From Actinomycetes bacterium (GTDB lineage Bacteria; Actinomycetota; Actinomycetes; Actinomycetales; Microbacteriaceae), in the NCBI GenBank assembly GCA_021779075.1, contig JAJYBG010000008.1:1-33350 (forward strand): a stretch of DNA of 33,350 nt, written 5' to 3'. This document shows, in pieces, positions 8,308 through 20,899 of this stretch (the first letter of the stretch is position 1; every line of letters begins with the position of its first letter). A program made the position numbers and the translations under genes. The notes beneath the pieces are model-generated. The model worked only from the letters and a program-made list of their open reading frames with translations. It was not told the origin of the DNA and did no database searches.

Positions 8308-8850
8308 CTATCCGAGTCGCGACTGCTCGGTGAGCGCGTGCCACTGGCGGTTGTAGTAGACCAGCGGCGCGGCGGCGTCGGCAGGATCCGGCAGCTTCGC
8401 CTCGAGTGCGTGAACGGTGACGAGAATCGACTGCCCGGCGCGGGTGCGCTGCACGATCTCGCCGCGGATCCAGGCGTGTGCGGCGGGGAAGACGACCTCG
8501 CCGGTGGGCAGGCGCGTCCACTGCGTGGTGTCGGCGAAGCGGTCGACGCCGTGCGTCGCGCCGAGTTTGGCGAGTGGATACTGCTCCGCCTCGAGCAGGT
8601 GCACGACGACGGTCTTCGCCTGCTCGATGGTCGGCGTCGACGAGGACATGTCCGAGATCGAGAAGACGAGCAGCGGCGGCTCGGCGCTCACGGAGAACAC
8701 GCTCGTCGCCGTCATCGCGACCGGCCCGTCGCCGACATCGGCGGTGATGACGGCGACCCCGGCGGCGTGGTTGCGGAACGCGAGCTTGAAGTCGTCGGCA
8801 CTCAGGCCGGCGCCGAAATCTGCCCCGAGATTGGTGTCGACGGCGCTCAA
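8308..8850 (-). CDS. Flavin reductase family protein (DIM6/NTAB type)
   Basis: FRNHAAGVAVITADVGDGPVAMTATSVFSVSAEPPLLVFSIS; TTG start overlapping the stop of the upstream gene. Confidence 0.9.
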   Translation of the reverse strand: MSAVDTNLGADFGAGLSADDFKLAFRNHAAGVAVITADVGDGPVAMTATSVFSVSAEPPLLVFSISDMSSSTPTIEQAKTVVVHLLEAEQYPLAKLGATHGVDRFADTTQWTRLPTGEVVFPAAHAWIRGEIVQRTRAGQSILVTVHALEAKLPDPADAAAPLVYYNRQWHALTEQSRLG

Positions 8851-9194
8851 TGCTGGTGCGCCTCGGGTGCGCCCTCGTAGAGCTTGAAGGCGAGGCGGCC
8901 GTGCGTGTACGCGGCGCCGGCGCGCAGGGCGGTCGCGACCCAGGCGATCTCGGCGATCTCGTTCTCGTTCGCCCCGGCCTTCTTCGCGGCGGCGGTGTGG
9001 CCCTCGATGCAGTACGGGCACTGGGTGGTGAGGGCGACGGCGATCGCGGCGAGCTCGCGGTACTTCACCGGGATCTCGCGCCCCTCCTGGAAGATCGCGG
9101 TGTTGAAGTCGCCCCACACCTTCAGGATGTCGGGGGTGTTGTCCCTGTAGACGTGCGTGAACTTCTTGTCGTCGGTGTCGAAGTAGTCGGCCAT
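8847..9194 (-). CDS. AhpD/carboxymuconolactone-decarboxylase-like protein
   Basis: MADYFDTDDKKFTHVYRDNTPDILKVWGDFNTAIF...ELAAIAVALTTQCPYCIEGHTAAAKKAGA: CxxCxxxH. Confidence 0.88.
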   Translation of the reverse strand: MADYFDTDDKKFTHVYRDNTPDILKVWGDFNTAIFQEGREIPVKYRELAAIAVALTTQCPYCIEGHTAAAKKAGANENEIAEIAWVATALRAGAAYTHGRLAFKLYEGAPEAHQH

Positions 9195-9204
9195 CTGATG
9201 CCTT

Positions 9205-9429
9205 TCAGTCGGTTGTTCCACCGTATGCCTGCGCGTGCGCGAGCCGCCCTCGGAGGTTCCGGGCGACGAGCCGAGCAGCGGGCACGCCGGCGGCTGCCTC
9301 GATCAGCGCGTTGTAGTCGGTGTTGGTGTTGACGTCGTGGACGACCCGGCGGCCTCCCACGGTGTCGAGAAACTCGATTCCGGCCACGGCGATTCCCATG
9401 TCGACGAGAACGGCTTCGAGCCGGCGCAC
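9205..9429 (-). pseudogene. C-terminal remnant of a RimK-like ATP-grasp ligase
   Basis: IVRRLEAVLVDMGIAVAGIEFLDTVGGRRVVHDVNTNTDYNALIEAAAG resembles the ATP-grasp C-terminal E...DVN.NT.YN metal-binding segment; no N-terminal ATP-grasp domain present. Confidence 0.65.
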
Positions 9430-9443
9430 AATCGGATCGGCCG

Positions 9444-10484
9444 CTACCGACCCCGCACGGGCGAGCGCCGGCCGAGGCCGGGGGCGACGTGCTCGGCGAC
9501 GGCGGCGAACACGTGCTTCTTCTGGGCCGTCGAGAGCTCGCTGATCGGAGTGAGGAGCAGCTCGTCGGCGAGGGCCAGCGCCGGGTCGGCTGCGAGCTCG
9601 TCGACGATCCGCGCGGGCTCACCGGAGTAGAGCGGGGTCGATAGCCCGTCGAAGCCGGAGCCGTCGGTGTAATGGCCGGTGGCGTCGACGAGGGAGGCGT
9701 AGTAGGCGGCGTGCCCGCCAAAGGCGGACTCGTCGTCGGCGTCGACGATGGGCAGGATGGAGCGGCTGATGGCGACGCGCGAGACGCGGCCCGGGTGGTG
9801 CGCGGCGAACTCGGCGCGGTACGCCGCGACGATCTCGGCCTGCTGGTGGCCGAGCGAGGCGTGGCCGGTGTCGCTGCCGATCGTGGAGAGCACGAGGTGC
9901 AGGCCGCGGCGGGCGGCATCCAGTGCGCTCTCGATGCTGCCCGCCCCGTACCAGAGGCGCTCGGTGAGGCCCGGCGCGTAGGGGAGGGCGACGTCGTCGC
10001 CGGAGTGCGCGCGCACCGGGCCGCCGGGCAGGTGCTCATCGCCGGTGCGGTTGCTGGTCTCCTCCGCGGCCTCGGCGGCGCCCGCCAGCGCCGCCTGGAT
10101 CTCGTCGAGCCGCTGCCGGGTGATCGCGCGCTTCGCTGCCGGGTCGTTTCCGTCGGGGATGCCGGAGCTCAGCCCGAGTTCGAGGCGCCCGTCGGCGAGC
10201 AGGTCGGTCGTCGCCGCGGCCTCGGCGAAGCGCAGCGGGTGCTCGAAGCCCACTGGGATGACCGCGGTCGCCAGCCGGATCCGTGTCGTGCGCTGCGCCA
10301 CCGCGGCGAAGAACGGGAACGGGCTGGTGAGTGTCTGCACGCCGTGGTGCACGCGCACCCAGCCCGAATCGAAGCCGATCGACTCGGCGTGCTCGTACAG
10401 TTCGATTCCGTCGCGCAGCGACCGCGCGGCGTCCGCGTGCCTCGTGTAGTTGAGGAAGACGAGGAATCCGAGGTCGAAGCTCAT
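9444..10484 (-). CDS. LLM class flavin-dependent oxidoreductase (LLM2)
   Basis: MSFDLGFLVFLNYTRHADAARSLRDGIELYEHAESIGFDSGWVRVHHGVQTLTSPFPFFAAVAQRTTRIRLATAVIPVGFEHPLRFAEAAATTDLLADGRLELGLSSG. Confidence 0.92.
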   Translation of the reverse strand: MSFDLGFLVFLNYTRHADAARSLRDGIELYEHAESIGFDSGWVRVHHGVQTLTSPFPFFAAVAQRTTRIRLATAVIPVGFEHPLRFAEAAATTDLLADGRLELGLSSGIPDGNDPAAKRAITRQRLDEIQAALAGAAEAAEETSNRTGDEHLPGGPVRAHSGDDVALPYAPGLTERLWYGAGSIESALDAARRGLHLVLSTIGSDTGHASLGHQQAEIVAAYRAEFAAHHPGRVSRVAISRSILPIVDADDESAFGGHAAYYASLVDATGHYTDGSGFDGLSTPLYSGEPARIVDELAADPALALADELLLTPISELSTAQKKHVFAAVAEHVAPGLGRRSPVRGR

Positions 10485-11305
10485 AGCAGCGGCTCTCCTT
10501 GCGCGTCGACGGCGTTGCGTTCGCCGGCGCGCACCGCGATGGGCAGGTGGTTCTCGACGGGTGGGATCGGGCAGTTCCACGCCAGGCTGAACGAACACGG
10601 CAGCAGCGCAGCGTAGTTGAAGTCGAGGATGACGCGGCCGGGGCCGGCGGAGTCGAGCTCAAGGCTGCGGCCGGCCGAGTAGGTCTCGACCCCGTTCGTG
10701 GCATCCGCGAAGAGCACGAGCAGCGAATCCGGGCGCGCCCCGCGCGTCGCGGCGAGCCGGTACTCGGCGCCGTCGACCTCGAAGACGACCTCGGCGGTGA
10801 CCGGGGTGTCGATCGGGCGCGGGTCGCGGTGGTGGGGGATGGCGACGGTGCGGCCGGGCGCGACGGTCTCGATGCGCCCCTCGATGCGCCAGGCGTCGTC
10901 GCAGGGGTACGCGGTGATGCCGGCGAAGCGGTTCGCCCATTCCGAGTGCGGGTTCCACACCTGGAGCGCGAACTTCGAGCGGTCGTAGCTGAAGACGATG
11001 CCCTCGGCACCGTCGGGGAAGGAGGCGACGGTCGGCCCATCGGCCTCGTCGTAGTGCAGGATCGCCGTGCCGTCGACGAGTGCGCCGCCGATGCGGATGC
11101 CGTCGGCCGCGGTCGCGTCGACGCGCACTCCGGCCTCGCCTGCCGGCAGTGGCGACCAGCGGCCGGGCGCGCCCGTCACGGTCTGGCCGGGCGCGGTGAC
11201 CATGTCGCCCCAGAAGAACGACGCCGGTCCGCGGCTGGAGGCGGCGTTGCGGATGCGCGCCTCGCGGTGCGCATCGAGTCTGTCGAGTTCAGCGGTGGTG
11301 CTCAT
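10481..11305 (-). CDS. DUF1684 domain protein
   Basis: ASFFWGDM...VILDFNYAALLPCSFSLAWNCPIPPVENHLPIAVRAGERN: DUF1684-like C-terminal motif; ATGA overlap with LLM2. Confidence 0.8.
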   Translation of the reverse strand: MSTTAELDRLDAHREARIRNAASSRGPASFFWGDMVTAPGQTVTGAPGRWSPLPAGEAGVRVDATAADGIRIGGALVDGTAILHYDEADGPTVASFPDGAEGIVFSYDRSKFALQVWNPHSEWANRFAGITAYPCDDAWRIEGRIETVAPGRTVAIPHHRDPRPIDTPVTAEVVFEVDGAEYRLAATRGARPDSLLVLFADATNGVETYSAGRSLELDSAGPGRVILDFNYAALLPCSFSLAWNCPIPPVENHLPIAVRAGERNAVDAQGEPLL

Positions 11306-12624
11306 GTCTTCCATCGTGACGCGGGAGGTGCAAGTCCGAGGTGCTCGCGCAATGTTTCGCCTTCGTACTCGGTACGGAACAGCCCGCGCCGCTGCAGTTC
11401 GGGCACGACGAGGCTCGTGAAGTCCTCGAGCGTGCCGGGCAGATAGGGGAAGGACACGTTGAAGCCGTCGGCGGCGCCGGTGGTGAAGTACTCCTCGATG
11501 CGGTCGGCGACATCGTCGGCGGTGCCGATGACCGCGCCGTCGCCCTCTGCGACGAACGCCACGAGGCCGCCGACGGTGAGGCCGTCCTGCACCGCCTGCG
11601 CGTAGAGCTCGGCCTGGGCGCCCTGGCTCGCGTTCGTCGCGGGCAGTGGCGGCAGCGGGGAATCCGCCGGCAGCGAGGCGAGGTCGGCGCGCAGCCAGTA
11701 CTCGACGTCGGCGAGGGCCACGCGCGGGTGCAGCAGCTCGCGCACCGCGGCGAACTTGTCCTCGGCCTCGGCGCGGGTGCGCCCGACGACCGTCGCGAGC
11801 TCGGGCAGCACGAGGATCTCATCGGGATTCCGCCCGAACCCGGCTGCTCTGGCCTTGATGGCCGCGTACTGCTCGCGCGACGGCTCGATCGCCTGTGCCC
11901 GAGTGAAGACGAGGTCGGCGATGCGGGCGGCGAGCGCCTGGCCGGCCCCGGACGAGCCGGCCTGGGCGATGATCGGACGGCCCTGCACCGGGCGGCGGAT
12001 GTTGAGGGGGCCGGCGACGGTGAAGAACTCGCCTCGATGGTCGAGGCGGTGCCGGCGGGCGGTGTCGAGGTAGATGCCGGATGCCTTGTCCTCGACGAAT
12101 CCGCCCTCCTCGACGCTGTCCCAGAGCCCCTCGACGACGTCGTAGAACTCCTCGGCGCGCCGGTAGCGGTCCGCGTGCAGCAGATGGCTGTCGAGGCCGT
12201 AGTTGCGCGCCTCGGCGTCGTTGAGCGACGTGACGACGTTCCAGCCCGCGCGGCCGTGCGAGATGTGATCGATCGCCGCGAAGACCCGGGCGGTGGTGTA
12301 CGGCTCCGAATAGCTGGTCGATGCCGTCGCGACGAGGCCGATCCGGTTCGTCACGGCGGCGAGGGCGCCGAGCAGCACGGTCGGCTCGAGGGCGTCGTTG
12401 ACGACGGCGACGCGCTCGAGGACGGCGTCGGGAGAATCCGGCACGCCGACGAGGTCGGGGAAGAAGACGGCGTCGAACTTCGCCGCCTCGAGGCGCTTCA
12501 CCAGCCCGGCGATGAACTCGAAGTCCACGCCCGCGGCGCGCGGGGCCTCCGGATGCCGCCAGCCGGCCAGGTACTCCCCGGCCGGTTTGAGGAACCCGCC
12601 GAGGTGCAGCGTGCGCCCGGTCAC
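11302..12624 (-). CDS. NtaA/SnaA/DszA-family FMN-dependent monooxygenase
   Basis: FDAVFFPDLVGV...GLVATASTSYSEPYTTARVFAAIDHISHGRAGWNVVTSLNDAEARNYG...QAGSSGAGQALAARIADLVF: family hallmarks. Confidence 0.94.
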   Translation of the reverse strand: MTGRTLHLGGFLKPAGEYLAGWRHPEAPRAAGVDFEFIAGLVKRLEAAKFDAVFFPDLVGVPDSPDAVLERVAVVNDALEPTVLLGALAAVTNRIGLVATASTSYSEPYTTARVFAAIDHISHGRAGWNVVTSLNDAEARNYGLDSHLLHADRYRRAEEFYDVVEGLWDSVEEGGFVEDKASGIYLDTARRHRLDHRGEFFTVAGPLNIRRPVQGRPIIAQAGSSGAGQALAARIADLVFTRAQAIEPSREQYAAIKARAAGFGRNPDEILVLPELATVVGRTRAEAEDKFAAVRELLHPRVALADVEYWLRADLASLPADSPLPPLPATNASQGAQAELYAQAVQDGLTVGGLVAFVAEGDGAVIGTADDVADRIEEYFTTGAADGFNVSFPYLPGTLEDFTSLVVPELQRRGLFRTEYEGETLREHLGLAPPASRWKT

Positions 12625-13613
12625 GCGCCCACCTCGGCGGCGGCACGCTTCCAGCCGAGGACGGGGGCGACCTCGCGGGCGATGGTCTCGAGGCCGCGGA
12701 TGGCCTCGTCGAAGGTCGTCCGGTGGGCCTGGGCGGCGAAGACGAGGTCGGTGGCGAGCTCGACGACCGGCGCGGCGCCGATGCTCGCGATGACGTCGTC
12801 GACGGTGCCGTGGTGGATGTTCATCGCCGCGAGCAGCTCCTCCGGGGCTGCGTCCTCGCCGACCCAGCCGGCGCGCTGGTAGTAGGACAGCGAGCTGTCG
12901 CGCACGCCCGGCCACAGCGAGTCGGCGACGGCCTCGGCAGAGGCGCCGAAGAAGGCTGAGTGCACGATCGCGAGGCGCGGCGCGATGCCCACCTCCGCCG
13001 CCGCCGCGAGATAGGCCTGGGCGAGCTCGAGCTGGACGGTCGCGGCAGGGCCGATGCCGATGAGCACGCCGTGGCCGTCGCGCGCCACCTGGGCTTCGCG
13101 CTCGACCGACCCCGGAGACTCCCAGATGCGTTCGAGCAGTGTCGGCGCCGGCGGCTGAAGCCGGGTCCCGGGTGCGAGCTCTTCGCCGGCGAGGGCGCGG
13201 CGCAGCACATCCGACGCGTTCGCGTAGAGCGCGCGCCGATCGTCGGCCGAGCGCCCGAACGCCGCGAACTGCTCGGGGTGCGGATTGCCGCTGCCGATGC
13301 CGAGCTCGAGGCGGCCGCTCGCGAGCGCGTCGAGGACCGCGGCGTCCTCCGCGACCCGCAGGGGCTCGTCGAGGGTGATCGTCACGACCGCCGTGCCGAG
13401 CCGGATGCGCGAGGTGCGCTGCGCCACCGCGGCGAGGAAGACGAGCGGCGACGGCAGTCGGCCCTCGTTCGTCGAGAGGTGGTGCTGCGCCACCCAGCCC
13501 GTCTCGAAGCCGAGCTCTTCCGCCGCCTGGAAGAGGTCGATGCCCCCGGCGTAGAGGTCGGCGGCGCTCTGCTCGCCGTGGAGGTGCGTCTGAAAACCGA
13601 GGCGGAAGGTCAT
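12621..13613 (-). CDS. LLM class flavin-dependent oxidoreductase (LLM1; resembles the KPN_01858-type family)
   Basis: MTFRLGFQTHLHGEQSAADLYAGGIDLFQAAEELGFETGWVAQHHLSTNEGRLPSPLVFLAAVAQRTSRIRLGTAVVTITLDEPLRVAEDAAVLDALASGRLELGIGSG. Confidence 0.92.
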   Translation of the reverse strand: MTFRLGFQTHLHGEQSAADLYAGGIDLFQAAEELGFETGWVAQHHLSTNEGRLPSPLVFLAAVAQRTSRIRLGTAVVTITLDEPLRVAEDAAVLDALASGRLELGIGSGNPHPEQFAAFGRSADDRRALYANASDVLRRALAGEELAPGTRLQPPAPTLLERIWESPGSVEREAQVARDGHGVLIGIGPAATVQLELAQAYLAAAAEVGIAPRLAIVHSAFFGASAEAVADSLWPGVRDSSLSYYQRAGWVGEDAAPEELLAAMNIHHGTVDDVIASIGAAPVVELATDLVFAAQAHRTTFDEAIRGLETIAREVAPVLGWKRAAAEVGA

Positions 13614-13631: not shown

Positions 13632-14426
13632 TCAGCGCCGGCGGCGGCCGTCGAGGCGGGGCACCGCCGACAGTAGCGCGCGGGTGTACTCGTGCTCAGG
13701 AGCGCTGAGGACCCGCTGCGACGGGCCGTCTTCGACGATCTCGCCGTCGTGCATGACGATGACGCGGCGGGCGAAGTGCTGCACCAGGCCGATGTCGTGC
13801 GAGACCAGGATCATCGAAAGGCCGAGGTCGCGGTGCAGCTCGCGGAGCAATTCGACAACCTGGGCGCGCACGGTGACGTCGAGGGCGCTGAGCGGCTCGT
13901 CGCCGATGAGCAGCTTCGGGCCGTGCACGATGGCCCGTGCGAGGGCGACGCGCTGGCGCTGGCCGCCGGAGAGCTCGTGCGGGTACCGCGTCGACAGCTC
14001 CGCGGCGAGCCCCACCCGTTCGAGCACCTCGGCGACCATGGCGCGGTGGTCGCCGTCGATGCCGAGCGCGCGCAGTGGCTCGATGACGCTGCGCCACACC
14101 GGCATGCGCGGGTCGAGCGAGGCATAGGGGTCCTGCAGCACGATGCCCGTCTCGCGGCGCAGCCAGCGCAGCGACGCGGCCGAGCCGGGCGCCACGCGGC
14201 GGCCCTCGAACTCGACCGATCCCGAGGTGGGGGAGTCGAGGGCGAGGATGAGCCGCACGAGCGTGGACTTGCCCGAGCCGGATTCCCCGATGATGGCGAG
14301 CGTGTCGCCGTCCGCCATCTCGAAGCTGACCCCTGCGAGCGCCCGCTTGACCTCGGCCGGGCCGAAGAGCGTGCGCCTCGGCAGCACATGGTCGCGGACG
14401 AGGCCGGTCACCGTCAGCAGTGTCAT
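13632..14426 (-). CDS. Oligopeptide-type ABC transporter ATP-binding protein (DppF/OppF-like)
   Basis: GESGSGKST Walker A, LSGGQRQRVALARAI, LLIGDEPLSALDVTVRAQVVELL, C-terminal EHEYTRALLSAVP. Confidence 0.95.
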   Translation of the reverse strand: MTLLTVTGLVRDHVLPRRTLFGPAEVKRALAGVSFEMADGDTLAIIGESGSGKSTLVRLILALDSPTSGSVEFEGRRVAPGSAASLRWLRRETGIVLQDPYASLDPRMPVWRSVIEPLRALGIDGDHRAMVAEVLERVGLAAELSTRYPHELSGGQRQRVALARAIVHGPKLLIGDEPLSALDVTVRAQVVELLRELHRDLGLSMILVSHDIGLVQHFARRVIVMHDGEIVEDGPSQRVLSAPEHEYTRALLSAVPRLDGRRRR

Positions 14427-15277
14427 GACAGCCCGCCTTCGGCGGCGGGTTCCGCGCGACGATCCGCGGGATCGCCGCCTCCGAGTGGAATCCGCGCATC
14501 GAAGCTCGTGAGCCGCGCCGCGGCGACGAGCCCCGCGGTGACCTCGTGCTGAGGGTGGTCGAGGATGCCCGCGACGGTGCCGCGCTCGACTGCGCGGCCG
14601 TTCGCGAGCACGAGCACGGAATCGGCCACCTGGGCGAGCACGCCGAGGTCGTGGGTCACGAAGACGAGCGCGGTGCCGGATTCGCTGACGAGGTCGTTGA
14701 AGAGTTCGAGGATTCCGGCCTGGATCGTCACGTCGAGCGCGGTCGTCGGCTCGTCGGCGAGCAGCACGCTGGGCGAGGCGGCGAGGGCGATGCCGATGCC
14801 GACGCGCTGGCGCTGCCCGCCCGAGAGCTGGTGCGGGTAGCGCTCGACGATGCGGCTCGGATCGGGAAGCTTGACGAGCGAAGCGAGGCGCACCGCTTGG
14901 CGGGCGCGCTCGTCGTGGTCGCGCCGGCCGACGATGCCGTGCAGCAGCAGAGGCTCGACGAGCTGGTTGCCGATGGTGCGCATCGGGTTGAGCGCCGTCT
15001 GCGGGTCTTGGAAGACCGATCCGATCCGGCGGCCGCGGATGCGCGCGAGCTCCTTCTCGGCCAGGCCCAGCAGCTCGACCCCGTCGAGGCGGACGCTGCC
15101 GGTCCAGGTGGCGCGCTCGGGGAGCAATCCGGGGATCGCGAGCGTCGTCAGCGACTTGCCCGAGCCGGATTCCCCGATGATGCCGAACCGCTCGCCCGGC
15201 GCGACCGAGAATGACACCGCGTCGACGACGACGCGCTCGCCGAAGCGGATGGTGAGGTCGGAGATCTCCAGGCTCAC
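14423..15277 (-). CDS. Oligopeptide-type ABC transporter ATP-binding protein (DppD/OppD-like)
   Basis: GESGSGKSLTTLAIPGLLP, LSGGQRQRVGIGIAL, LLADEPTTALDVTIQAGILELF; GTG start. Confidence 0.95.
   Translation of the reverse strand: MSLEISDLTIRFGERVVVDAVSFSVAPGERFGIIGESGSGKSLTTLAIPGLLPERATWTGSVRLDGVELLGLAEKELARIRGRRIGSVFQDPQTALNPMRTIGNQLVEPLLLHGIVGRRDHDERARQAVRLASLVKLPDPSRIVERYPHQLSGGQRQRVGIGIALAASPSVLLADEPTTALDVTIQAGILELFNDLVSESGTALVFVTHDLGVLAQVADSVLVLANGRAVERGTVAGILDHPQHEVTAGLVAAARLTSFDARIPLGGGDPADRRAEPAAEGGLS
14431..14497. repeat. Palindromic repeat copy A (inside the 3' end of the dppD-like gene)
   Basis: CGCCTTCGGCGG-N11-CGACGATC-cgcg-GGATCG-CCGCCTCC...ATCCGCGC. Confidence 0.65.
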
Positions 15278-16185
15278 GGGGTCGCCGCCTTTCGGCGGCG
15301 CCTGCTCGAGCGACGGTCCATCGGACCGTCGCTCCCGGCGAGCAGCCGGGGGTCCGTCGCCTCGCGCAGGGCATCCCCGAAGAGGTTGAACCCGAGCACG
15401 GTGAGGCCGATCGCGACGCCCGGCCACACCGCGGTCAGCGGGTAGAGGGTGATGTAGTTCTGCAGGTCGTGCAGCATGCGGCCCCACGAGGCGGTGCCCG
15501 GGTCGGCGCCGTAGCCGAGGAATGACAGGCCGGCCTCCGAGAGGATCGCCACCCCGGCGGCGAGAGACAGCTGCACGATGAACACCGGCGCGATGTTGGG
15601 GAAGATGTGGTCGACGAGGTTCCGCCACGGCCCGACCCCCGCGGCGCGCGCGGCGAGCACGTAGTCGGTGCGCGCCACCCGGCGGATCTCGCCGCGCGAG
15701 ACTCGGGCGATGTTGACGCCGAATCCGATGCCGACGGCGATGACGACGTTGACGAGCGAGGGGCCGAGGACCGCGGTGAGCATGACGGCGATGAGCAGCA
15801 CTGGGAACGCGATGAGGATGTCGACGATGACGGCGATAGTCTCGCGCAGCCATCGGCCGGTCAGCGCCCCGAGCGCGGCGAGGGCGATGCCGACGACGGT
15901 GGCGACGACGGAGGAGCCGGCGGCGACGAGCAGCGTGGTGCGCGAGCCGAGGAAGAGGTAGCTGAAGATGTCCTTGCCGACCGCGTCGGTGCCGAGGAGG
16001 TGCGCGAGGCTCGGGCCGAGCCAGGGGTGGAACGGGTCGGCGTAGAACGGGTCGACGGGCGTCCAGAAGCTCGAGACGACCGCGGAGGCCACCAGCAGGA
16101 TGATGACGATCGAGCCGAAGATGCCGGCCGGTCGCCGCCGCAGTTCGCGCAGCCAGGCCGGGCCCTGAGTCCGTCGAGGGGTCAT
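15274..16185 (-). CDS. ABC transporter permease (DppC/OppC-like)
   Basis: HLLGTDAVGKDIFSYLFLGSRTTLLVA...RAAGVGPWRNLVDHIFPN...GLSFLGYGADPGTASWGRML. Confidence 0.95.
   Translation of the reverse strand: MTPRRTQGPAWLRELRRRPAGIFGSIVIILLVASAVVSSFWTPVDPFYADPFHPWLGPSLAHLLGTDAVGKDIFSYLFLGSRTTLLVAAGSSVVATVVGIALAALGALTGRWLRETIAVIVDILIAFPVLLIAVMLTAVLGPSLVNVVIAVGIGFGVNIARVSRGEIRRVARTDYVLAARAAGVGPWRNLVDHIFPNIAPVFIVQLSLAAGVAILSEAGLSFLGYGADPGTASWGRMLHDLQNYITLYPLTAVWPGVAIGLTVLGFNLFGDALREATDPRLLAGSDGPMDRRSSRRRRKAATP
15283..15335. repeat. Palindromic repeat copy B (inside the 3' end of the dppC-like gene)
   Basis: CGCCTTTCGGCGG-N12-CGACGGTC-catc-GGACCG-TCGCTCC; contains GCGACGGTCC-ATC-GGACCGTCGC, a 10-bp perfect hairpin. 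Confidence 0.6.
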
Positions 16186-17144
16186 TCGAGGTCCCCGTCC
16201 GCCTGCCGCTCGCGCGGGTCGACGAGGCGGTGCACGACGTCGACGACGAAGCCGACGACGAGGATGAGCGCGGTGATGACGAGCAGCTCGCCCTGCACCT
16301 TGACGAGGTCGCGATTGCCGACATCGTCGACGAGCGCCTTGCCGAGGCCGGGCAGCTGGAACACCACCTCGACGAGCACGGCGCCGACGAGCAGCGCGGC
16401 GAGCTGGATGCCGAGCACCGACACCACCGAGAGGATGACGTTCGGCAGGCCGTGCGTCACGAGCGCGCGGGTCCGCGTCATGCCCTTCGCCGCCGCGGTG
16501 CGCACGAAGTCCTGGCTCATCGCCTCGAGCGCCGCGGAGCGCGTGAAGCGCAGCAGCACGGCGCCCTCGACGAGAGCGATGGACAGCGCCGGCAGGATGA
16601 GCGAGTCGAATGCGCGCCGCGGGTTCGCCCAGCCCGCATTGGGGAACCCCTGCACCGGCAGCCAGCGCAGGTACAGCCCGACGCCGACGGCGAGCAGCAT
16701 TCCGATGAACACGATCGGGATCGCTGCGACCGCCTGGGCTGCGGCGGAGATGGCGAAGCCGCTGAAGCGCCGGTGGCGCACCGCCGACACGACGCCGAGG
16801 GGGATTCCGATGGCGAGGCCGAACACGAGCGACAGGCCTGCGAGGGGCAGGGTGACGGTGAGGGCCCGGCCGATGTCGTCGGCCACCGGCACGCCGGTGA
16901 GCAGCGACTGCCCGAGGTCGCCGTGGAGCAGTCCCGCCACCCAGTCGCCGAACTGGACCAGCACCGGCTGGTCCAGTCCGAGCGATCTGCGGATGTGGGC
17001 GATCTGCTCCGGTGTGGCCTGGGTTCCGCCGATCGTGAGGGCTACGTCACCCGGGAGCACCCGGAGGGTGAAGAAGATCAGGATCGCGGCGACCGCAAGC
17101 CCCACCAGGAGCAGCAGCGCCCGAGTGGCGAGAAAGCGGGTCAC
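16182..17144 (-). CDS. ABC transporter permease (DppB/OppB-like)
   Basis: FFTLRVLPGDVALTIGG...IRRSLGLDQPVLVQFGDWVAGLLHGDLGQSLLTG...VRTAAAKGMTRTRALVTHGLPN. Confidence 0.95.
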   Translation of the reverse strand: MTRFLATRALLLLVGLAVAAILIFFTLRVLPGDVALTIGGTQATPEQIAHIRRSLGLDQPVLVQFGDWVAGLLHGDLGQSLLTGVPVADDIGRALTVTLPLAGLSLVFGLAIGIPLGVVSAVRHRRFSGFAISAAAQAVAAIPIVFIGMLLAVGVGLYLRWLPVQGFPNAGWANPRRAFDSLILPALSIALVEGAVLLRFTRSAALEAMSQDFVRTAAAKGMTRTRALVTHGLPNVILSVVSVLGIQLAALLVGAVLVEVVFQLPGLGKALVDDVGNRDLVKVQGELLVITALILVVGFVVDVVHRLVDPRERQADGDLE

Positions 17145-17148
17145 GAAC

Positions 17149-18651
17149 TCACTGTCCGCCGAGGACCGAGATGTTCGCCAGGTTGAGCCGGTTGTTGGTG
17201 TTGTTCACCGGCAGGCCCTTGAGCGAGGTGCTCACCACGTTGAGCACGACGCCCTGGTACAGCCACTCCGCCGCGGCGTCGTTCGACACGATGGCGGCGG
17301 CCTGCGAGAGATACTTCGCCTCGTCGCCCTCGGTCGTCGACGCGAGTGCCTGGTGATACCGCGACTGCACCTGAGCGTTGTCGTAGTGGAAGTAGTACTT
17401 CGGGTTCGTCCACAGCGTGCCGAAGTCGTGCGACTCGACGTGGTCGACGATGCTCAGCTGGTAGTTGCCGGCGATGAACACCTGCGACAGCCAGGTGTTG
17501 AAGTCGACCTGCTTGACGGTGAGCTTGACGCCCACCGCGTTGAGCTCGCTGGTGAGGATGTCGGAGATCGTCGTGCCGTACGGAGTGGGGATCGTCAGCG
17601 TGAGCCTGGTCACTCCCGCCGCGGCGAACTTCGCCTTGGCGTCGGCCGCGTTGTAGGCGTCGACCGAGGTGAGGTCCTGGTATCCCGGGTCCCCGGTGGG
17701 GATCGGACCGCCGAGCGGGAGGCCGGCGCCGCCGACCGCCGCGATGATCGCCTTGGGGTCGATCGCCTCGCGGATGGCGGTGCGCACGTCCTTCTTGCTC
17801 AGCGTCGGGTCGGTGTTGTTGAAGCCCAGCGTCCACTTGTCGGTGGAGTCGCCCTGGACGATGGCGAGGTTCTGAGCGCCGGCGAACTTGGCCTTCTGGG
17901 TGGGGTCGACGGGCAGCAGCGCCTGGAGATCGCCCGAGAGGGCTGCGTTCGCCGCGGTCGCGGTGTCGGCGTAGTAGTGGAAGACGATCTCCTTCACCTG
18001 CGCCTTCGTGCCCCAGTAGTTGTCGTTGCGGTCGAGGGTGAGGCTGGTGTTGGCCTGGAAGCCGGCGACCGTGTACGGGCCGGTGCCGAGCGCGGTCGTC
18101 TTGAGGTCGTTCGTCGCGCCCTTCTCGAGCACGATGCCCGCGCGGCCGGCGAGCGCCCACAGCGTCTCGATGTTCGGCTTGTCGAGCTTGACCTCGACGG
18201 TGCCGACGTCGGGTGCGGTGACCGAGGCGACGTCCGCGAGACCGGACGCATCCACGTAGGTCGTCTTGTTCTTGGTGGCATCCTGCAGCGAGCTCACGAC
18301 GTCGTCGGCGGTCAGCGCGTGGCCGTCGCTGAACGTCACGCCGGAGTTGAGCGTGAAATCGTAGGTGAGGCCGTCGGGGGAGATCGTGTAGCTCTTGGCG
18401 ATGTCGCGGACGATCTTGCCGCTGTCGTCGAGGGTGACGAGGCCCTGGTACACGTTGTCGAGCAGCGCCTGGTTGAGGGCCGCGCCGGCGGTGGTGCGGA
18501 TGTCGAGGTCGGTCGGGGCGAGGACGAGCCCGAGGTTCACGGTCGCGTCGGTGTTGACGGGGGTGGGGGTGGAGCCGCCGGTGCACGCGGCGAGCGTCAC
18601 AGCCGAGACTGTGGCGAGACCCGCGGCGAGCAGTATCTTCGAGGTGCGCAT
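17149..18651 (-). CDS. ABC transporter substrate-binding lipoprotein, SBP family 5
   Basis: MRTSKILLAAGLATVSAVTLAAC lipobox; GLVTLDDSGKIVRDIAKSYTISPDGLTYDFTLNSGVTFSDGHALTADDVVSSL. Confidence 0.95.
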   Translation of the reverse strand: MRTSKILLAAGLATVSAVTLAACTGGSTPTPVNTDATVNLGLVLAPTDLDIRTTAGAALNQALLDNVYQGLVTLDDSGKIVRDIAKSYTISPDGLTYDFTLNSGVTFSDGHALTADDVVSSLQDATKNKTTYVDASGLADVASVTAPDVGTVEVKLDKPNIETLWALAGRAGIVLEKGATNDLKTTALGTGPYTVAGFQANTSLTLDRNDNYWGTKAQVKEIVFHYYADTATAANAALSGDLQALLPVDPTQKAKFAGAQNLAIVQGDSTDKWTLGFNNTDPTLSKKDVRTAIREAIDPKAIIAAVGGAGLPLGGPIPTGDPGYQDLTSVDAYNAADAKAKFAAAGVTRLTLTIPTPYGTTISDILTSELNAVGVKLTVKQVDFNTWLSQVFIAGNYQLSIVDHVESHDFGTLWTNPKYYFHYDNAQVQSRYHQALASTTEGDEAKYLSQAAAIVSNDAAAEWLYQGVVLNVVSTSLKGLPVNNTNNRLNLANISVLGGQ

Positions 18652-18736
18652 TGCTGTGTTCTTCTTCTCTCTCAGACGGATGGATTGCGAATGGTGCGCG
18701 GTGGCGTGGGGGTGCTCAGCCGATAGTCTCCGCTGA

Positions 18737-20065
18737 TTACGGTCGGACCGCTCGCGCGGCCGCGAAGCCGCGTTCGAGGTCTGCGATGAGGTCGTCGGCG
18801 TCTTCGATGCCGACCGACAGGCGGATGAGTCCCTCGCCGATGCCGGTGGCGGCGCGCTGCTCGGGGGTCTGCGAAGAGTTCGTCGTCGACGCCGGGTGGA
18901 TGACGAGCGATCGCACGTCCCCGATGTTGGCGAGGTGGCTGAACAGCTTGACCCCTCCGATGAACGCCTTCCCGGCCTCAAGGCCGCCGACGAGGTTGAA
19001 GGAGAACACGCTGCCGGCGCCCTTGGGCAGGTACTTCGCGGCGAGCCCGGCCGACGGGTGCCCGGCGGCGAGCGGATGGTTGACGAGCTCGACCTGCGGG
19101 TGGCTCTCGAGGTAGCGCACGATCCGCTCGGTGTTGGCCACGTGCTGGCGCAGGCGCAGGCTCAGCGTCTCGATGCCCTGGATGAGCAGGAACGAGTTGA
19201 ACGCCGAGAGGGTGGGGCCATAGTCGCGCAGCAGCAGCGAGCGCAGGCGCAGCAGGTAGCCGAGGCCCTGGCCGTGGAAGCGCTCCCAGTAGCCGATCTC
19301 ACCGTGGCCGGGGTCGACGGAGTGCAGTCCCGGCCATTTGGCGGGCTCGGCTCCGAAGTCGAACGCGCCCGAGTCGACGACGACGCCGCCGAGCACCGTG
19401 CCGTGTCCGGTGAGGAACTTCGTCGTCGAATGCACGACGATGTCGGCGCCGAAGTCGATGGGGCGCAGCAGGTAGGGAGTGGCGAGCGTGTTGTCGATGA
19501 TGAGCGGCACGCCGGCGTCGTCGTGTGCGACGCGGGCGACCGTCTCGATGTCGAGCACGCGGGCGAGCGGGTTGGCGATCGACTCGGCGAAGAAGGCCCT
19601 GGTGTTCGGGCGGATGGCGGCACGCCACGCCTCGGGGTCGTCGATGTCGGTGACGATGGTGTGCTCGATGCCGAGCTCGGGGAAGCGCTGCGTGACGAGG
19701 CTCGTCGTGCCGCCGTAGACCTGGCCGGAGAGCACGACGTGATCGCCGGCGCGCACGATGTTGAGCAGGGCGAGGGTGGTCGCGGCCTGGCCGCTGGCGA
19801 CGGCGACAGCACCGACGCCGCCCTCGAGCGCGGCGATCCGGCGCTCGGCCGCTGCGGTCGTCGGGTTGCCGGTGCGCGAGTAGCTGTTGACGGTGAGATC
19901 CTCGAGGAGGAACGACGCAGCCGCCGTGTCGACGCTCTCGTAGACGTAGCTCGTCGTCGCGAAGATCGGCACCGCCCGCGCCCGGGTGGCGGGGTCGGGG
20001 AAGGCGCCCGCGTGCACCTGAAGGGTGTCGAAGGACCAGCCCGATTCGAGAGACTCGTCGCTCAT
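18737..20065 (-). CDS. metY: O-acetylhomoserine sulfhydrylase (Cys/Met metabolism PLP enzyme)
   Basis: FDTLQVHAGAFPDPATRARAVPIFATTSYVYESVDTAA...SYSRTGNPTTAAAERRIAALEGG...STTKFLTGHGTVLGGVVVD. Confidence 0.93.
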   Translation of the reverse strand: MSDESLESGWSFDTLQVHAGAFPDPATRARAVPIFATTSYVYESVDTAAASFLLEDLTVNSYSRTGNPTTAAAERRIAALEGGVGAVAVASGQAATTLALLNIVRAGDHVVLSGQVYGGTTSLVTQRFPELGIEHTIVTDIDDPEAWRAAIRPNTRAFFAESIANPLARVLDIETVARVAHDDAGVPLIIDNTLATPYLLRPIDFGADIVVHSTTKFLTGHGTVLGGVVVDSGAFDFGAEPAKWPGLHSVDPGHGEIGYWERFHGQGLGYLLRLRSLLLRDYGPTLSAFNSFLLIQGIETLSLRLRQHVANTERIVRYLESHPQVELVNHPLAAGHPSAGLAAKYLPKGAGSVFSFNLVGGLEAGKAFIGGVKLFSHLANIGDVRSLVIHPASTTNSSQTPEQRAATGIGEGLIRLSVGIEDADDLIADLERGFAAARAVRP

Positions 20066-20120
20066 CGGAATCGACGCTAGTCGGCCGATGAACGGCGTGC
20101 GAACCCGGCGTAACACAGAG

Positions 20121-20132
20121 TGCGCATGCGCA
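20121..20132. promoter_or_regulatory. 12-bp perfect palindrome in the divergent metY/phosphatase promoter
   Basis: TGCGCATGCGCA within the 87-bp spacer, 8 nt upstream of TAATCT (20141-20146). Confidence 0.4.
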
Positions 20133-20152
20133 TGACCCCATAATCTGAGGGC

Positions 20153-20899
20153 ATGAGCGAACCCGAGCGGCTGGTGCCCCTGGCCGGCACGTACAACCTG
20201 CGCGATGTGGGCGGCTACCGGGCTGCGGGCGGCGGCACGACTCGCTGGGGGAAGCTGTACCGCTCCGACTCCCTCCATGCGCTGACGGATGCGGATGTTG
20301 CGGAGCTCGCGCGCCGCGGCGTCAAGCGCGTCATCGACCTCCGCAGCGACGATGAGGCCGACTTCTCACCTTCCCGTCTCGACGCGCTCGACGCCGAGAT
20401 CATCCGCAATCCGCTGCTGTCCGGGCCGACGAGCGATTACATCGCCAGGGACGCCGCGCTCGCCGAACTCTACTCCGACATCGTCGAGCGCGAGGGGGAC
20501 CGGCTCATCGCCGCGATCCGCCATATTGCGGGCTCCGGGGATGATCCCGTCATCGTGCACTGCACGGCGGGCAAGGACCGCACCGGCCTCGTCGTCGCGC
20601 TCGCGCTCGACCTCGTCGGCGTCGACCGCGCCGAGATCATCGCCGACTACGCCGAGACTGAGAAGAACCTGCCCGCGCCGCTGCTCGATCAGATCGTGGA
20701 GCGGCTGCGCGCGCGGCATGTGCTCGAGAACCCGGTGAATCTCGACGCGCTGGTGCGTCTCAGCCCCGCCGCCGAGCTCGAGCGGGTGTTCGCCTCGATC
20801 GAGGCGCAGTACGGCTCGACGCGCGAGTACGCGCTCGCGCACGGCCTCACCGACGCCGACGTCGACGGGCTCAGGCGAGCCCTGATAGAAACCCACTGA
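20153..20899 (+). CDS. Tyrosine/lipid protein phosphatase (Y_phosphatase3, MptpB-like)
   Basis: YNLRDVGGYRAAGG...LYRSDSLHALTDADV...KRVIDLRSDDE...VIVHCTAGKDRTGLVVAL. Confidence 0.93.
   Translation: MSEPERLVPLAGTYNLRDVGGYRAAGGGTTRWGKLYRSDSLHALTDADVAELARRGVKRVIDLRSDDEADFSPSRLDALDAEIIRNPLLSGPTSDYIARDAALAELYSDIVEREGDRLIAAIRHIAGSGDDPVIVHCTAGKDRTGLVVALALDLVGVDRAEIIADYAETEKNLPAPLLDQIVERLRARHVLENPVNLDALVRLSPAAELERVFASIEAQYGSTREYALAHGLTDADVDGLRRALIETH

Follow-up and report, generated by a model that had tools for sequence, protein, structure and literature searches.

The window analysed here, a 33,350-nucleotide stretch of DNA from a member of the Microbacteriaceae, carries a minus-strand gene cluster in which luciferase-like monooxygenases lie together with a flavin reductase, an ABC transporter and a sulfhydrylase-like enzyme (Table 1); the operon looks dedicated to sulfur scavenging. 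Two NCBI models, TIGR04027 and TIGR04028 (named KPN_01858 and KPN_01854), are distantly related to LLM3 (and LLM2) and the substrate-binding protein, and the cluster may be the counterpart of that uncharacterised KPN_01858/KPN_01854 gene set. The ABC transporter ATPases, at 13.6–15.3 kb, had been suspected of containing a second broken gene; their frames proved to be open.

Table 1. Features in and around the LLM2–AhpD interval, numbered along the window.
Feature	Position	Strand	Remarks
Flavin reductase (PF01613)	8308..8850	-	
AhpD/carboxymuconolactone decarboxylase family protein (PF02627)	8847..9194	-	
Putative RimK-like ATP-grasp ligase remnant	9205..9459	-	Frame ...ALARAGSVAADPIVRR...DVNTNTDYN...GGTTD*
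Proposed deletion junction zone	9444..9480	-	LLM2 3' end GLG|RRSPVRGR*, continuing into the ligase remnant in another frame
LLM2, luciferase-like monooxygenase (PF00296)	9444..10484	-	Last few residues altered
DUF1684 protein (PF07920)	10481..11314	-	Shares 49% identity with the protein encoded ahead of LLM2 in Galbitalea
LLM1, NtaA/DmoA-family FMN monooxygenase	11302..12780	-	TIGR03860 above cut-off
LLM3, luciferase-like monooxygenase	12621..13613	-	Nearest model TIGR04027, below cut-off
ABC transporter and OAH/OAS sulfhydrylase-like enzyme	13632..20278	-	Open, no break seen
Two ABC transporter ATPase frames	~13632-15270	-	
ABC transporter permeases	15274-17144	-	
ABC transporter substrate-binding protein	17149-18981	-	
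OAH/OAS sulfhydrylase-like enzyme	18737-20278	-	

Between LLM2 and the AhpD gene there is an ORF of 74 aa (9205–9429, minus strand), which stops just ahead of the AhpD ATG at 9194. Its GTG start at 9429 is a codon internal to the old ligase gene and, as the original prediction had stated, lies 14 nt past the LLM2 stop (TAG, 9446–9444 on the minus strand). The companion claim, that the frame read upstream runs into the 3' end of LLM2 with no ATP-grasp N-terminus, was likewise accurate: the reading there is GSVAADPIVRRLEAV / ALARAGSVAADPIVRR, out of LLM2’s frame. The ligase-like frame as a whole comprises ~80 codons, equivalent to residue ~228 to the end of a protein of ~310 aa.

On its own, the 74-aa fragment matched no family in a Pfam search, so that intact relatives were needed to show ATP-grasp homology; in the PDB there was no more than a hint of it, from the ATP grasp ligase 5ig8 (E 1.2). 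Set against intact family members, the proposed identity of the ORF as the C-terminal end of an ATP-grasp protein is unambiguous: it aligns with residues 233–304 of a 309-aa ligase from Galbitalea sp. SE-J8 (54% over 72 aa; BLASTP, E 2e-21), and it represents the C-terminal ~75 residues of a RimK-like ATP-grasp protein of ~310–330 aa. In a sample of 400 whole genomes from this family, the window’s own included, the remnant matched 83, its own genome among them; in the other 82 (E 2e-9 to 6e-20) the match always lies within an open frame of at least 275 aa. All 30 of the loci that we examined align along nearly the entire ligase, about residues 5–305 of 310, whereas the window retains the last ~80 positions only. 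Scanning genome contigs with the fragment turned up no relative.

The intact proteins carry a glycine-rich stretch, KHNQGGKGLGV, and a C-terminal E...DxNTNTNYN motif. Their family profile matches the RimK structures 5zct and 4iwx (E 2e-6), 4 of 13 match PF08443, and against TIGR00768 they score 52 bits (E 6e-14), below the cut-off of 143; judged by these profiles, the family is a distant branch of the RimK/ATP-grasp group, weakly matched and falling below the TIGR00768 threshold. The window ORF preserves the metal-binding motif E...DxN (as GIEF and DVN), in which the glutamate of GIEF and the aspartate and asparagine of DVN are presumably the three metal ligands, as in RimK-type enzymes. The nucleotide-binding N-terminal and central parts, including the glycine-rich loop, are absent from it, and the N-terminal three quarters or so of the ligase were found neither in the window nor elsewhere in the 89%-complete assembly. 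With the three presumed ligands kept but no nucleotide-binding part, the remnant would therefore be unable to catalyse a reaction.

In Galbitalea sp. SE-J8 (G032/L035), a DUF1684 gene, LLM2 and a full-length ligase gene follow one another in this order on one strand, the LLM2 stop overlapping the ligase start in a 4-nt GTGA. The Galbitalea cluster also holds orthologues of the window’s ABC transporter, sulfhydrylase, LLM3, LLM1 and AhpD genes, partly rearranged, and its AhpD gene is elsewhere in the cluster rather than directly after the ligase. Two tandem LLM1-type genes lie there (L089, 2890–5540), 69% and 44% identical to the window’s single LLM1. In two genomes of another genus (L041 and L052), AhpD comes immediately after the ligase, so that both halves of the ancestral order LLM2–ligase–AhpD are seen, though not in one genome. 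The expectation that relatives would have a full-length ATP-grasp gene in the LLM2–AhpD interval is thus borne out in two parts: after LLM2 in the one genome found to share the gene set, and ahead of AhpD in a further two. LLM2 adjoins an intact ligase in Galbitalea alone, at ~50% identity, which makes the ancestral interval a reconstruction. Scanning genome contigs with an LLM2 alignment gave Galbitalea as the sole match, an LLM2 search of 400 family and 386 order genomes turned up no closer syntenic cluster, and no close relative with either the same junction or an intact interval was found in these genomes. DUF1684 by itself was too common to serve as a cluster marker; its other top matches (genus g2) are in another context.

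The end of LLM2 was also said to look non-native. When C-termini are aligned, homologues end in ...APLLGWRTPAGAIA or ...APALGWTP.., whereas the window reads ...APGLGRRSPVRGR; the window protein thus departs at the conserved tryptophan of ...LGW, and to that extent the claim stands, but the few residues that follow (R-S/T-P) could be native. In Galbitalea, 710 bp separate the two positions that are neighbours in the window. On the Galbitalea scale, then, about 710 bp would be missing, a gap consistent with one deletion, whose breakpoint probably lies somewhere within 9444–9480.

It is highly likely, in our view, that a complete RimK-like ligase gene once lay between LLM2 and AhpD, that a deletion of ~0.7 kb cut it, and that the ORF is what is left of its 3' end. 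A single event of this size would have removed the last few LLM2 codons together with ~230 codons from the start of the ligase gene, including those for the glycine-rich ATP-binding loop, and would have put the ligase C-terminus behind LLM2 in a different frame; LLM2 would now end where a TAG happens to occur a few codons past the junction, and the remnant would have drifted since. The original proposal, an internal deletion of most of an operon ligase gene, accordingly finds support in the homology, the missing N-terminus, the Galbitalea synteny and relaxed constraint.

Evidence for relaxed constraint was derived from sites that are invariant across 29 intact sequences, the intact ones being scored in the same way: the remnant breaks 5 of 18 such sites (4 of 16 without the columns near the junction), and each intact sequence breaks 0–1. 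Its mean identity to the intact sequences is 43%, compared with 55–66% among themselves; its terminal branch measures 1.02, the next longest being 0.51 and the median 0.18; and its GC3 is 0.78, against a mean of 0.93 (sd 0.05) for 131 equal-sized windows of neighbouring genes. These values fit a gene freed from selection some time ago, although similar values could in part come from a divergent subfamily of the ligase. It also speaks against decay that the frame runs through ~80 codons without a stop, but stop codons are rare in such GC-rich DNA.

The broken sites, long branch and low GC3 speak against both a fresh assembly artefact and a conserved mini-protein. An assembly error, by which a contig was misjoined or a minority deletion assembled while the ligase is intact in the real genome, seems improbable to us: the source does consist of 197 contigs (89% complete, 1.78 Mb), but if a working gene had been misjoined, its invariant residues and GC3 should be preserved, which in the remnant they are not, and the missing N-terminus is on no other contig. 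Still less probable is that the 74-aa product works as a small protein, perhaps as an accessory or regulatory domain that the operon has put to new use. The open frame, the retained metal-site residues and the proximity of the start to the LLM2 stop, which makes coupled re-initiation possible, would suit such a role; however, the start has no visible ribosome-binding site, no promoter-like site is nearby, and no free-standing short homologue, of the kind whose conservation under purifying selection would have told against decay, turned up in the 400 family genomes. Equally hard to credit is that the fragment arrived beside LLM2 already truncated by recombination and was never a full gene here. 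At the threshold used, none of the three genus relatives shows a close LLM2; two of them have no ligase match, and the operon could have been laterally acquired, but this account is at odds with the intact ligase at the same place in Galbitalea and ahead of AhpD in L041 and L052. We give very little credence to the remaining notion, that the operon runs without the ligase since its loss changed the substrate range and that the C-terminal piece persists as a re-initiated small metal-binding protein.

As to what the ligase did, the gene directly after it at 20 loci picked by similarity to the window (L034–L053) most often encodes a luciferase-like monooxygenase, and otherwise a Cys/Met PLP enzyme, AhpD or an M20 peptidase. 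These neighbours suggest that the breakdown of sulfur compounds includes an ATP-dependent conjugation. The intact enzyme may make an amide or peptide bond on a sulfur substrate of the operon; an amino acid or peptide, the original proposal’s example, is a putative substrate. The remnant in this way points to an uncharacterised RimK-like ligase that in the Microbacteriaceae accompanies luciferase-like monooxygenases, sulfhydrylase-type PLP enzymes, AhpD or M20 peptidases; its natural loss would mean either that the step is dispensable or that this operon has ceased to be fully used. The window’s assembly measures 1.78 Mb at 89% completeness and three genus relatives 2.9–3.7 Mb; the genome may be reduced, which would suit ongoing gene loss.

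One described parallel is the yxe operon of B. subtilis, which serves an S-(2-succino)cysteine salvage pathway that first acylates its substrate, then oxygenates it and finally takes the acyl group off again (PMC9706529). It likewise combines an FMN-dependent monooxygenase with an ABC transporter, and an N-acyl bond is made and undone as cysteine sulfur is regained; by this analogy, the ligase may add an amide-linked group before oxygenation. The likeness is one of analogy only: yxe works with an acetyltransferase and a deacetylase, and PMC9706529 mentions no ATP-grasp enzyme or ligase. With RimK-like ATP-grasp ligases (PF08443; RimK, LysX and alpha-L-glutamate ligases), the intact relatives share the GGKG loop and the E...DxN motif but form a separate branch, for which we found no characterisation, and the window copy differs in lacking the N-terminal three quarters; our literature search for a RimK-like ligase in operons of this type yielded no relevant paper. 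The remnant also resembles ordinary bacterial partial-deletion pseudogenes, which likewise leave an in-place 3' remnant, an altered neighbour tail and relaxed constraint. We see no difference of principle: the intact orthologue by which a pseudogene is recognised stands at the syntenic place in a relative (G032), and the remnant is an ordinary pseudogene. With only the last quarter of the ligase left in the operon, one step of an uncharacterised pathway has thus probably been lost by ordinary deletion.
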